Of a DNA stretch of 27,722 nucleotides, positions 1-7,831 are shown piece by piece. A program made the translations under genes and the position numbers. The stretch covers positions 1 to 27,722 of IMG/VR virus record IMGVR_UViG_3300035698_016645. The stretch is one strand, 5' to 3'. How positions within the stretch are numbered: the stretch's first letter is position 1; each line of letters starts with the position of its first letter. Source of the DNA: a virus. The notes beneath the pieces were generated by a model. It ran no database searches. It was not told where the DNA came from and saw only the letters and a list, made by a program, of their open reading frames with translations.

Positions 1-164
1 TCCCAGTTATGGTCTCCAAAGTTAGATGATTGAATATATGCTCCTTTAAGAATCCATTCAGATACGATATCTCCAGTTGGCCCTAGAACATTTAATATAA
101 GATTAGGGTAACCTTTTTGGAATTTATAAGAATAACGATTTAAAAATTTACTAATAGGATCCAT
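1..164 (-). CDS. Partial CDS, unknown phage protein (N-terminal part only)
   Basis: An open frame starts with ATG at 164 and runs without a stop to the window edge, giving about 54 residues that begin MDPISKFLNRYSYKF and continue with a QKGYPNL segment. The start shares one base with the stop of the upstream gene (TAATG), the same coupling used elsewhere in this window, which supports both the start and the reality of the gene. No catalytic motif is visible in the part present and I do not recognise the function. The rest of the protein lies outside the window. Confidence 0.7.
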   Translation of the reverse strand, partial: MDPISKFLNRYSYKFQKGYPNLILNVLGPTGDIVSEWILKGAYIQSSNFGDHNW

Positions 165-718
165 TAAATTTCCTCTTCAGAATCAGTATCGGCAGTCGCG
201 TCATCACCCCCTTCGTCTGGTAGGTCTGTGTCATCCTCAAATTCATCTGCAAAATCAAATTCTCCTCCACCAGAATCTCCTCCTAAATCACCCCCTCCAG
301 ATGATCCTCCCCCACTAGATTCTCCACTGTCTTCAGATTCTTCTCCATACTTATTCATTTCACCATATCTTAATAATCTTGATATAGCAATAGTAGCAGC
401 TTCCTCTTCGGTAAGATTTAACAAATAATATTTTTTAGACGACACTTCTGCTATCCAACTTCTTTCGCTAAATATTAAATAGAAGTCATGTCCGTTTTTT
501 AAATTTATTCTAAATGTTGTTGGTTTTGGAGCCACCCAATCTATAGATGAAAGGAAATTATCAAATTCAGGAGATAATAGATCTACAATTACTTTTTTTA
601 ATTCTGGAAATTTAGTTAATTCATCATATTCCATAGCATCATCCTCGGCTTTAATGATTCGAGGCAGAATTGGTGGTACTAAACTTAGAATTTTTTTACG
701 TAATTCAGATTTATTCAT
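164..718 (-). CDS. Unknown 184-aa protein with Gly/Ser linker and very acidic C-terminal tail
   Basis: Residues 1 to about 125 look folded, with a basic N-terminal helix (MNKSELRKKILSLVPP) and a mixed alpha/beta core. About 60 residues of low complexity follow: Gly-Ser runs, then a tail dominated by Asp and Glu with a few Phe. Such a tail is typical of flexible, protein- or DNA-competing ends, but there is no clear SSB-type terminal motif. The start overlaps the stop of the 78-aa gene upstream by one base, and the stop overlaps the start of the next gene by one base, so it sits in a tightly coupled cluster of small genes. Function not recognised. On the opposite strand the Gly/Ser stretch yields a Pro/Ser-rich shadow frame, which I disregard. 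Confidence 0.8.
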   Translation of the reverse strand: MNKSELRKKILSLVPPILPRIIKAEDDAMEYDELTKFPELKKVIVDLLSPEFDNFLSSIDWVAPKPTTFRINLKNGHDFYLIFSERSWIAEVSSKKYYLLNLTEEEAATIAISRLLRYGEMNKYGEESEDSGESSGGGSSGGGDLGGDSGGGEFDFADEFEDDTDLPDEGGDDATADTDSEEEI

Positions 719-1991: not shown

Positions 1992-2555
1992 TTACTTTTT
2001 TAGGTTTTCTAAATACTCAACAGTTTTGTCAATGCTCGATAAAACTTTTTCTTTATTGAATCCACCTCTAAATTTGTATTGATCTCCGTTTTCAGCAAAA
2101 TAAATATCGGTTGACTCAGATAATACATCATGTGCCCAATCCTTAAAGTCCTTGATAAAGAAATCAATATCGGCGTTGTTTAGACGTTTTTCATATTCAT
2201 TCCATAGACCTGATCTTCTTAATTCTGCTTCAAAATCAATAACACAATCATAACATTTTTTATGTACTTTATAGTAATCTTTGTCGAAACGTTTTTTCAT
2301 TATTCTTTCACAATTAGGACAAAATAATGGGATTTGGTAATTAGACTTTGCTAATTTTAATTTCGAAATACTTTGTTTTACATTGTTTTTAATGGTCCAC
2401 TTTTTACCTTCTTCCATCCACACATCCCCTTCTTTGTAAGTATTTTTATAATCTTTCTTAAAACCGATTATGGTTTTAGTAGAATCACCAGATTTACCTT
2501 TAACAATATTCCTTACTCTTTGGATATCTTCTTCCTTAAATTCTTTTTTTAACAT
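1992..2555 (-). CDS. Zinc-finger phage protein, function unknown (187 aa)
   Basis: The N-terminal half is basic with a KEGDVWMEEGKKWTIKN segment. A zinc-binding site follows: CPNC at about residues 79-82 paired with C/H residues around HKKCYDC (about 98-104). A helical region (ELRRSGLWNEYEKRL) and an acidic C-terminal half complete it. The arrangement recalls a widespread, uncharacterised tailed-phage protein with the same EGDVW...WTIK...CPNC order; this is recognition from memory, not a search. It begins one base after the end of the 611-aa gene, so it is cotranscribed with the kinase/nucleotidyltransferase pair. A nucleic-acid-binding role is plausible but unproven. Confidence 0.8.
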   Translation of the reverse strand: MLKKEFKEEDIQRVRNIVKGKSGDSTKTIIGFKKDYKNTYKEGDVWMEEGKKWTIKNNVKQSISKLKLAKSNYQIPLFCPNCERIMKKRFDKDYYKVHKKCYDCVIDFEAELRRSGLWNEYEKRLNNADIDFFIKDFKDWAHDVLSESTDIYFAENGDQYKFRGGFNKEKVLSSIDKTVEYLENLKK

Positions 2556-2556
2556 A

Positions 2557-4392
2557 TTATAAACCTAAAATTTGAAGTTGATTAATTGTATTTTTTGTGT
2601 TTTTGTGTAAGATACCAATTCCTCCTGCGTTTTCAAAACTTTTTATATTTTTTTCTTTATCATCAATTAAAATCGAATTACCTGGCATAGCAAATTCACC
2701 TTTATCAAATGAAAAATTTACTCTAACACCTGATGTGTGGTTTTTGGCCCACTGTTCTTTACCTAATCTTGAGTCTTGAGATCTAGAAGGTGTTGTTAAT
2801 ATTTGGGGTTTATATTTTTTAACATAATTATACAATTCATCTCCATCTTTCATCCAAGGAATATTTACCCACCATTCTGAACCATGTTCCCCTATAAGAT
2901 CCCAAAATTTAGATTTACCATAAGTACTTTCATATTCTGTGGGTGGGATTCCTCCTGAAATGGTTTGGAAATGGGTATCAAAATCTGCTAATACGCCATC
3001 AAGATCAAGGAATATATCGTATTTGGGTTTTTTATTATCTGTTGAGATTGATTCTCTTACACTTTTGGCAAATTCATGGGCAAATTCATTTAAACCAAAT
3101 GGATCCTTTTTACGAGATTCATCTAATTCACCTTTTTGTAATATATCAGAAAAATATTTACCTGCATCCAATTCATCACCTTCCAGTTGAGATAAGATTT
3201 CCTGATGTTTTCCTGGATTTTCTTTTAGGTCTTTGTACACGTTATAAAATGTAGCCCAATATTTAATCTCGGGAGTTATTTCTATTTCTTCTAAATTTAA
3301 ACTCTTAAGTTTAGTATAATATTCAGGGTCTTCAGCTAAATGTTGTAAAGCTATTTTTTTAGATTCTTCTCGATCATCTGTGTGTTCCATTTCAACCTCA
3401 ATACCTATTTTTAGTTCTTGTGGGTCTACTTTATCTTCTTCAGCAGGTGTTTGGATTTCATTCATTGATTTTTCGCTAATGCTATCAGTCCAATTCCTAA
3501 AAATAATATTTCCTTTTTCGTAAGCTTCCCTCTCTATTTTCTCTAGGTTTTCATCTTCTGTAGTATTGGTAGTAGATATATTTTCCAATCTACCTTCTAA
3601 ATTTTGAAGGTGATGGATTAACTCATGAGAATATGATCTAACTATGTCTTTTGGATGTCTATCCTTAATGTATAAAACAATTAATTTATTTTGAGGATCG
3701 TAATATGCGGTTTTACCAAAAAAGTTTTTAGATTCAGTTTCATCTTCTACACATTTTAATTCTGGTAGAGGGGTTACATTCATATCCTGAGATGTGATGT
3801 AATCATTAAATAATGAAATGTAATGTTTATGATCTTGGGTTGGATTTTTTATAATAAGGCTTTCTTTAATAATTGGTGTAAGCATATCCCATATTTTTTC
3901 TTTATATTCAGGTTTTAATTTAGTAGGTAAATATGTAAAGAATAGGTCTTTGTTATCTTCTCTTACAGATTTACGACTATTGGTACCACTAACCGATTTA
4001 TCTTCTCCTTTTACTATATTTACTTTTATATTAGAGTATTTATCAATACTTTTAGTTCGAGCCATTATGTCTTTATCATCTTGGTCTACTCCTTCTCTAG
4101 CTCCGATAGCAAATATTAATTCATCATCAGTAAATTCTTTTGCTAATTTATAAACATCCCCAATTGGGGAGGATGAAATTTTTAAATGTACAGGGATACC
4201 AACTAATGATTTGTACATTTGCCATATTTCTTTTGAGATTTCTGGGGTTATACCATCACGTTCTTTAGTTCCTATAAGAATAACGAATTCATCTATATCT
4301 GGGTTTTGCTGTATAGTTTTCTCCACTACACTAAAGTGACCTTTGTGTGGTGGTTTAAAACCTCCTGCATATACCGCATATTTTTTACTCAT
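2557..4392 (-). CDS. Four-part fusion: nucleotidyltransferase, HExxH metallopeptidase-like, DUF5661-like, HAD phosphatase
   Basis: Residues 1-150 form a HIGH-superfamily nucleotidyltransferase: GGFKPPHKGHF (10-20) carries the H-x-G-H signature and VSGTNSRKSVRE (134-145) matches the second, SGTxxR-type motif of NMN/FMN/CDP-alcohol transferases. Residues about 225-300 contain SHELIHH with HELIH at 256-260 and a downstream acidic helix around E287-E289, as in minimal zinc metallopeptidases. Residues 324-375 (KIGIEVEMEHTDD ... HLAEDPEYYTKL) resemble DUF5661. Residues 458-611 form a HAD phosphatase of the 5'(3')-deoxynucleotidase type: DLDGVLADFD (463-472) supplies the two catalytic Asp, TTPS (533-536) motif II, and LIDDKEKNI (575-583) motif IV. 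The start overlaps the kinase gene upstream by 8 nt. Substrates unknown; NAD, cofactor or nucleic-acid-end metabolism are options. Confidence 0.88.
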   Translation of the reverse strand: MSKKYAVYAGGFKPPHKGHFSVVEKTIQQNPDIDEFVILIGTKERDGITPEISKEIWQMYKSLVGIPVHLKISSSPIGDVYKLAKEFTDDELIFAIGAREGVDQDDKDIMARTKSIDKYSNIKVNIVKGEDKSVSGTNSRKSVREDNKDLFFTYLPTKLKPEYKEKIWDMLTPIIKESLIIKNPTQDHKHYISLFNDYITSQDMNVTPLPELKCVEDETESKNFFGKTAYYDPQNKLIVLYIKDRHPKDIVRSYSHELIHHLQNLEGRLENISTTNTTEDENLEKIEREAYEKGNIIFRNWTDSISEKSMNEIQTPAEEDKVDPQELKIGIEVEMEHTDDREESKKIALQHLAEDPEYYTKLKSLNLEEIEITPEIKYWATFYNVYKDLKENPGKHQEILSQLEGDELDAGKYFSDILQKGELDESRKKDPFGLNEFAHEFAKSVRESISTDNKKPKYDIFLDLDGVLADFDTHFQTISGGIPPTEYESTYGKSKFWDLIGEHGSEWWVNIPWMKDGDELYNYVKKYKPQILTTPSRSQDSRLGKEQWAKNHTSGVRVNFSFDKGEFAMPGNSILIDDKEKNIKSFENAGGIGILHKNTKNTINQLQILGL

Positions 4393-5149
4393 TTAAAAAT
4401 TTATTTATTTTTGATTTAGCCTGGTCCAATGTATCTCCTTTTAGAACATTTTGACTTAATAATTTTATTTCTTGGTTTAGTTCTTCTTTTTCTTTTTCTT
4501 TCTTTTCTAGTTCCTCTGGGGTTTTTGGTTTACCAACAGCCTTAGAATCTTCAAAATATGGATCTATTAATTCTTGAGAGAAATCTGTTGTAACATCATC
4601 AGGATTATTATTGATAAGGCTAAAGTTTGGGTTAAAGGCTTGACTAAAGATATCTATATTTTTTACTACGTCTCTCCAAGTTCTTAATATAATACTAGGC
4701 ATTAAACTTCGGGTACGTTCAGAGTTTCGTTTTAAAGAAGTTAATGGGGAAACATATAACATTAACATAAATGTTTTATATCCTAGATCTTCTAATTGGC
4801 TTTTTTTCTTTAAAATAACATTAGATGAACCTCCGGTACCATCTATTACTACATCTTTTAAGCTATTAGTTAATTCCTCATATTTTTGATTTGTAAGTTT
4901 TCGGGCTTGCCCCATTAACTTAGCGGCTTGTGATAACTCTTCAGGAGAGAAATCTTTTTGGTTTAAACCTAAACCCGTATCTTTGAGCATTTTTTCATAT
5001 TCATCATCTATATTAATTACAATCAATGATGGAGGAATTACTTTTTGAGAAATGAATGATTTCCCTGATCCTGCCGGGCCTGCTAAAAATATAGCAGAAG
5101 GAGAATTAGAAGATTCTATCTCATTAAGTAATTCTAATAATTTGATCAT
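4385..5149 (-). CDS. P-loop kinase (zeta-toxin / polynucleotide-kinase-like)
   Basis: A Walker A motif GPAGSGKS lies at residues 24-31, immediately after a short tag MIKLLELLNEIESS. INIDDEYEKML (about 45-55) and VVIDGTGGS (about 103-111) sit where zeta-toxin and polynucleotide-kinase-like proteins place the substrate-binding and Walker B-like acidic residues, and an Arg-rich lid (SLKRNSERTRS) follows near residues 139-149. The C-terminal 60 residues are charged and helical. Expected role: ATP-dependent phosphorylation of a small molecule, sugar nucleotide or nucleic-acid end. The gene overlaps the 611-aa fusion by 8 nt, so kinase, nucleotidyltransferase and phosphatase would be made together. 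The LLNE at residues 7-10 matches a T4-type prohead cleavage rule. Confidence 0.85.
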   Translation of the reverse strand: MIKLLELLNEIESSNSPSAIFLAGPAGSGKSFISQKVIPPSLIVINIDDEYEKMLKDTGLGLNQKDFSPEELSQAAKLMGQARKLTNQKYEELTNSLKDVVIDGTGGSSNVILKKKSQLEDLGYKTFMLMLYVSPLTSLKRNSERTRSLMPSIILRTWRDVVKNIDIFSQAFNPNFSLINNNPDDVTTDFSQELIDPYFEDSKAVGKPKTPEELEKKEKEKEELNQEIKLLSQNVLKGDTLDQAKSKINKFLNE

Positions 5150-7315: not shown

Positions 7316-7831
7316 TTAAATGTAATTTTCTATATTACTAAATTTCCCACTGTCTTCATCCATAATTTTGATTGGAGTATTATACTTTTCATAATATTTT
7401 ATTATGGTTTCAATATCATCGTCGTAAGGGGAAAATTCATATACTGTTATGGATTTAACATATTTATGTAAATTTGGAAGAGATTGAGTTTTAATTAATT
7501 CTTCACTTTCATCTGTATCTTCTTCGGGGTCTTGAAAAAATTCAATATCTCTAGTGGGAACTATTTTGTATTTATTACTTAATTTATCTCCATCTAAACT
7601 AATTCTTACATTTACCGAGTGACCATCCGCTAAACCTAAACCTTGACTATTAGCTACATCTCCAAAATTTTTATTTCTTGTGGTTGATATACCTAACCTT
7701 TCGAATTCAGTACTAACTCTTAAACTATCACTTTTAAGGATGTAATTTAAATTTTTTAAATTTGTGAAGTGGTATAAAGTACCTCTTTGCTTTCCCTCGA
7801 CTATTTCATTTAATAAGGTTTTCAATTTCAT
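7316..7831 (-). CDS. ADP-ribosyltransferase-like / DarT-like unknown, possible virion-packaged effector
   Basis: After a tag MKLKTLLNEIVEG, residues 17-40 read GTLYHFTNLKNLNYILKSDSLR, the LYHxT...NL..IL..L pattern shared by DarT/DUF4433 proteins and other ART-fold transferases. ISTTRNKNFG follows at residues 48-57, resembling the (I/S)S-TR strand of these families. DGDKLSNKYKIVPTRDIEFF lies mid-protein and a very acidic PEEDTDESEE loop after it could hold the catalytic Glu. ART chemistry is an inference; a non-catalytic relative is possible. LLNE at residues 6-9 matches the T4 gp21 cleavage rule and the tag of the kinase. It overlaps the stop of the 446-aa tail gene by 4 nt, so it is expressed with structural genes. 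Compare T4 Alt, a virion-carried ART. Confidence 0.7.
   Translation of the reverse strand: MKLKTLLNEIVEGKQRGTLYHFTNLKNLNYILKSDSLRVSTEFERLGISTTRNKNFGDVANSQGLGLADGHSVNVRISLDGDKLSNKYKIVPTRDIEFFQDPEEDTDESEELIKTQSLPNLHKYVKSITVYEFSPYDDDIETIIKYYEKYNTPIKIMDEDSGKFSNIENYI

Follow-up and report, generated by a model that had tools for sequence, protein, structure and literature searches.

The window, by which we mean the whole stretch of DNA analysed, is a 27,722-base IMG/VR virus record, a 27.7-kb fragment. Positions 2557-4392 of its minus strand form a single uninterrupted 611-aa frame in the ORF translation, confirming what an earlier sequence-only reading had claimed, and the plus strand across these positions contains many stops. 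The start codon that opens the frame is the first one downstream of a stop and lies at the first of four modules: a nucleotidyltransferase (NT), a peptidase (PEP), a DUF5661 module and a HAD module. The presence of four modules in one chain, proposed by the same reading, was supported by Pfam, phrog and Foldseek matches and by the presence of catalytic motifs in NT, the zincin and HAD, and the motifs GGFKPPHKGH, VSGTNSR, HELIH (residues 256-260), KIGIEVEMEHT, DLDGVLADFD and LIDDKEKN were all found where it had placed them. The features of the locus are as follows (↓ marks a predicted cut).

2557..4392, minus strand: whole four-module protein, 611 aa (ORF translation)
3892..4380, minus strand: NT module, residues 5-167, HIGH-superfamily nucleotidyltransferase, NMNAT/NadD/PPAT-like (GGFKPPHKGH and SGTNSR, Foldseek)
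3862..3864, minus strand: E177, predicted cut site IIKE↓S in the NT/peptidase joint (motif)
3490..3813, minus strand: PEP module, residues 194-301, predicted zincin metallopeptidase (conserved zinc-site residues, structure model)
3613..3627, minus strand: HELIH, residues 256-260 (H256, E257 and H260 invariant in 64 sequences)
3532..3534, minus strand: E287, likely third zinc ligand, ExxA (invariant in 64 sequences)
3457..3459, minus strand: E312, weaker predicted cut site SMNE↓I before DUF5661 (motif)
3298..3432, minus strand: DUF5661 module, residues 321-365 (PF18905, 46.6 bits versus a cut-off of 27)
3118..3120, minus strand: E425, predicted cut site ELDE↓S (motif)
3052..3105, minus strand: leader-like stretch DPFGLNEFAHEFAKSVRE, residues 430-447, ending in the predicted site SVRE↓S at E447 (motif)
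2563..3027, minus strand: HAD module, residues 456-610, NT5C-like 5'(3')-deoxyribonucleotidase (phrog_2643, motifs)
4385..5149, minus strand: upstream zeta-toxin-like P-loop kinase with the leader-like start MIKLLELLNE, overlapping the 611-aa gene

The NT module has intact HxGH and SGTNSR motifs in its sequence, and its HxGH motif, SxTxxR-type motif and fold are those of a HIGH-superfamily nucleotidyltransferase. Its Pfam match was weak (13.6 bits versus a cut-off of 21), Foldseek matched it to NadD/PPAT (E 2.7e-5), and it missed the family cut-off for NMN adenylyltransferases (NadR/NadM/NadD), for which the best NCBIfam score was 24 bits versus 127. In locus L022 (2606-4516), a 637-aa protein fuses an NT module to an RNA-ligase-like N-terminal part (Pfam 26.1 versus 27 bits). 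The score of the DUF5661 module exceeded the PF18905 gathering score, and this domain went unmentioned in the papers searched, a limited library. The HAD module matched phrog_2643 (E 2.4e-24, residues 454-609) and scored 15.8 bits versus 24.8 for Pfam NT5C; all of its catalytic motifs (DxDGxxxD, S/T, K, DD) are present, as in a deoxyribonucleotidase.

For the PEP module, we aligned 64 related peptidase modules and found H256, E257, H260 and E287 to be invariant across them. Modelled alone, the module gave a pLDDT of 82 and a pTM of 0.79, with a layout of helix, three strands, HExxH helix and ligand helix; its top structural rows were nearly all HExxH zincins, although the scores were middling (Wss1 with Z 8.1; IrrE, ArdC and other zincins with Z 6-8). 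On the HExxH motif, the candidate third ligand and the zincin fold of the model, the PEP module is a predicted zincin metallopeptidase, and the sequence-only reading's worry that HELIH might lack a third ligand was answered by the conserved candidate E287. A chance occurrence of HExxH was ruled out by the invariant residues in the 64 modules and the zincin-type model. The PF18818 (MPTase-PolyVal) profile matched 3/64 of these modules, weakly (best E 0.051), and a PDB sequence search with the whole protein and with a peptidase profile gave no usable relative. Cellular occurrence of the module was confined to two metagenome-assembled bacterial genomes, one of them labelled Winogradskyella.

In the whole-chain model, local confidence was high (pLDDT 83), dipping around residues 311-313, 367-372 and 443-453, and global confidence was low (pTM 0.43). 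This pattern fits separate domains with flexible joints. In a Foldseek search with this model, the best rows covered the NT and HAD modules only.

We found 424 IMG/VR loci encoding the PEP module, 80 of which were read. The 91 complete PEP open reading frames comprised NT-PEP-PEP2 (35, PEP2 being a second peptidase), NT-PEP (29), PEP-HAD (14), PEP alone (7), NT-PEP-HAD (4), the window order (1) and the window order with an inserted PEP2 (1), and 21/91 had a further N-terminal part. Where HAD was unfused, a HAD gene lay downstream in 69/82 cases, at a median gap of 17 bases. The modules of the window protein are carried fused, separate or re-ordered by its relatives in many phage contigs. The exact order NT-PEP-DUF5661-HAD, which the earlier reading had suggested seeking in phage data, was found in the window alone; contig L002 has it with the one extra module, at 48% identity in the best segment. 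An assembly join of separate genes, the other doubt raised by that reading, was ruled out, since independent contigs carry the same modules fused. It had also proposed that three reactions are linked in one chain, and catalytic motifs are present in NT, the zincin and HAD; the link to a single pathway is weaker, as the modules separate, re-order and re-fuse freely, which speaks for a co-delivered cargo set and not for a channelled pathway.

The joints between the modules hold a short motif. Strict matches to [LIVM]xE[AGS] in the window protein occur at E177, E425 and E447, each followed by S, all in joints and none in domains; as candidate prohead-protease sites, at which cleavage would release folded parts, these read L/I-X-E at E177 and E425 and V-x-E at E447. 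At the position of E312, L002 has SLNE↓I and L014 has SLQE↓V; E177 lies within a predicted helix of the whole-chain model. Stretches resembling residues 430-447 are found ahead of HAD in L071 and, in L002 and L050, ahead of the second peptidase. Across 51 multi-module proteins, the motif density in joints was 9.6 per 1000 residues versus 4.0 after shuffling (0/200 shuffles reached the observed value), and in domains it was 1.9 per 1000, below the shuffled 3.3, a difference between joints and domains of about 5-fold. Controls with K, D, N, Q or R replacing E in the same frame were flat in these proteins. The motif is short and the relatives are non-independent, and under increasingly strict removal of similar proteins the joint/domain ratio ranged from 3.8 to 6.3, with six mutually dissimilar proteins giving an enrichment of 6.3-fold (p 8e-4). 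Joints were defined as everything outside five recognised modules and may include unrecognised domains, which should dilute the enrichment.

The same motif recurs in leaders. Among 41 distinct stand-alone HAD proteins, 36 have L/I/V/M-x-E↓A/G/S in the leader, versus 2.6 expected by shuffling (maximum 8); examples are MKKTPTLLDLYE↓AIKPKY and MKNSIVDLLE↓AYPIPE. The HADs of the cassette start 19-28 residues ahead of DxDGV, and those of isolated phages outside it start 5-8 residues before the catalytic DxDGV in 6/10 cases and 16, 24, 32 or 197 residues before it in the other four. Directly ahead of PEP2, a hydrophobic-x-E↓G site (VMAE↓G, LNE↓G, VLTE↓G, LMTE↓G or VLNE↓G) is present in 22/26 sequences, and the contexts further upstream are of about five kinds. 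Genome-wide in Flavobacterium phage immuto, an N-terminal [LI]xE[AGS] occurs in 12/30 genes of the head-side cassette versus 15/176 others (p 4e-5), and the control motifs showed no enrichment. A second leader type, NFDLKKFLxENKLT, starts more than 25 distinct proteins of differing lengths and is also found in internal copies. The stretch DPFGLNEFAHEF is similar to the NFDLKKFLxEN leader, a resemblance that does not by itself establish a common origin. The protein of L002 has an N-terminal leader, MNQLTKHLVDGILNE, and one ending in L/I-X-E is absent from the window protein, which begins at the NT module. If the window protein is packaged, its targeting must come from the internal leader-like stretch at 430-447 or from partners.

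Head genes of the T4 type accompany the relatives. Peptidase_S77, the T4-type prohead protease, was found in 12/15 related records and Gp23 in 12/12 records searched; none of the genes visible in the 27.7-kb window fragment is a prohead protease. The capsid-protein propeptides of related phages repeat the cut motif, as LFE↓G or LLE↓S and as GLLE↓G; close to where maturation is expected, a site located by analogy with T4 gp23, they read IVSE↓A or LVSE↓Q. This sharing calibrates the cut motif for this phage group, and T4 gp21 itself cleaves after L/I-X-E (PMC9026906). In the record of L098, the Gp23 match of the capsid gene (L155) spans two in-frame TAA stops despite the given 568-aa open frame.

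Gene order in the window runs from tail/baseplate-type genes in the middle, so read by comparison with immuto, to a primase, an exonuclease, the kinase, the 611-aa gene and then small genes; the minus strand carries all of them. In immuto the order is primase, exonuclease, one further gene, a long NT protein, HAD and a homologue of window 1992-2555, with terminase, portal, prohead protease and capsid genes some genes beyond that homologue. We place the modules in a late, head-side gene cassette of T4-type phages. The zeta-toxin-like kinase is conserved as a neighbour, with 49 distinct rows among related loci, and its homologues there mostly start with M-I-x-L-x-x-L-L-x-E, like a capsid targeting leader. 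In Morganella phage vB_Mm5, a zeta-domain protein with the start MTLKSFKEFITLDEA adjoins a HAD gene.

Other proteins of the neighbourhood were also observed. The 171-aa product of window 7316-7831 (minus strand; MKLKTLLNEIVEGKQRGTLYHFTNL...) has a leader-like start and a weak Tox-ART-HYD1 hint (E 0.012), making it a possible head-packaged ADP-ribosyltransferase like T4 Alt; its homologue in L098 likewise starts with a leader, MIKLLDILNES. A WVAPKP-type module, another piece of the mosaic, is its own gene in the window (164-718, minus strand) and the C-terminal part of ~600-840-aa proteins in immuto and others (for example L041 18003-20525); its first helix is similar whether alone or fused, and we left this out as proof because the helix may be part of the domain. 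In immuto (L041 16258-17216 and 21628-22629), annotations as ferredoxin, cob(I)alamin adenosyltransferase and tRNA agmatinyltransferase look doubtful, and some of the doubtfully annotated cassette proteins have leader-like starts instead.

From the sequence evidence, we consider it somewhat probable that the product of the 611-aa frame is a precursor of virion cargo in a T4-type phage, a multi-enzyme chain that would be packaged in the head, cut by the prohead protease and injected; the host is probably a member of the Bacteroidota. The main weakness of packaging as a reading of the window protein is its absent N-terminal leader. The same absence suits a rival explanation, in which the protein acts uncut in the infected cell as a multifunctional enzyme of NAD+ or nucleotide salvage, with DUF5661 and the zincin as accessory parts. 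NT and HAD retain intact active-site motifs, and phages do encode enzymes of NAD+ synthesis, such as NadR/NadM (PMC9503650). However, such an enzyme would leave the leaders and the joint motifs unexplained, its modules are freely separated and re-ordered among relatives, and in immuto the cassette is grouped with genes for the terminase, portal, prohead protease and capsid, so that we regard this explanation as unlikely.

Less probable still is an injected protein of the polyvalent type with its own HELIH zincin, instead of the prohead protease, as the cutting enzyme. The sequence-only reading had raised this self-processing, and its premise stands in that the zinc site of PEP is conserved, its modelled fold is that of a zincin, and polyvalent proteins contain zincin-like peptidases more often than any other domain, with a proposed role in processing the chain (PMC5512222). 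The idea fared less well against the arrangement of the genes: PEP is often in another gene than the parts it would release, 7 of the 91 complete PEP frames having PEP alone and 14 PEP with HAD only, and HAD is mostly a separate downstream gene with its own leader. The joint motif, moreover, is that of a T4-like prohead protease and of the capsid propeptides. That the joints are helical linkers or scaffold-binding tags, never cut, in a chain packaged whole seems very improbable, for although the motif is short and partly in predicted helices, the enrichment is for E followed by A/G/S, with none when K, D, N, Q or R takes the place of E, and the capsid propeptides of related phages share it.

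Under the favoured reading of a packaged and cut precursor, the chain would be drawn into the scaffold core while the head assembles, and the prohead protease would cleave after E177, after E425 and/or E447, and perhaps after E312. The released enzymes would remain in the head and enter the host with the DNA, where NT may make NAD+ or a related product, HAD may dephosphorylate deoxynucleotides and the zincin may cleave a host protein; these substrates are the least certain step. The earlier suggestion of a polyprotein is supported. A tentative extension, to which we give rather less credence, is a cargo polyprotein in which every joint is cut by the prohead protease and the order of modules recombines freely if a leader or cut motif accompanies each module.

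Each kind of module is already known, as are polyvalent injected chains and the leaders cut by prohead proteases in T4 and giant phages; the papers searched (a limited library) yielded no multi-enzyme chain with a cut motif at each joint. Phage NadR/NadM belong, like NT with its NadD/PPAT fold, to the HIGH superfamily, but NT lies far under the NCBIfam equivalog cut-offs and has other fusion partners. Among isolated phages, immuto (NC_055915) encodes homologous NT and PEP in gp088, with HAD adjoining in gp087 and in the same neighbourhood; gp088 differs in having a second peptidase and additional sequence at its N terminus, with HAD and DUF5661 in separate genes. By eye, gp088 seems to start with a Pol-beta-type NTase stretch, a point of likeness to polyvalent proteins. 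No virion proteome study of immuto was recognised among the titles and abstracts of the literature found.

In T4, N-terminal propeptides of 10-19 residues direct internal proteins to the head (PMC9026906), and IPI-IPIII and Alt have short N-terminal leaders that end in L/I-X-E and are cut by gp21 (PMC9026906, PMC9958956, PMC5694885). The relatives have leaders of this kind on proteins that are unlike one another, and T4-type head genes with Peptidase_S77 are present in them, as in the T4 system. However, the T4 internal proteins are single cargoes cut near their ends, whereas chains of the window type have motifs between modules and the window protein lacks an N-terminal leader. Polyvalent proteins, as described by Iyer et al. 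in 2017, combine several unlike enzymatic domains, often with a zincin-like peptidase, and are predicted to be packaged and injected (PMC5512222). Like the window protein, they place at least two biochemically unlike domains in one phage chain. DUF5661 is unmentioned in that work (PMC5512222), and processing was proposed there via embedded zincins, whereas window-type chains have prohead-protease motifs at their joints. If correct, our reading would unite the capsid-targeting leader and gp21 cutting of T4 with the polyvalent proteins, whose release mechanism is guesswork, and leader plus hydrophobic-x-E↓A/G/S would be a code with which to predict head cargo among unknown phage proteins. It would apply to a widespread environmental phage group (424 PEP loci), of which immuto is an isolate that permits a direct test.
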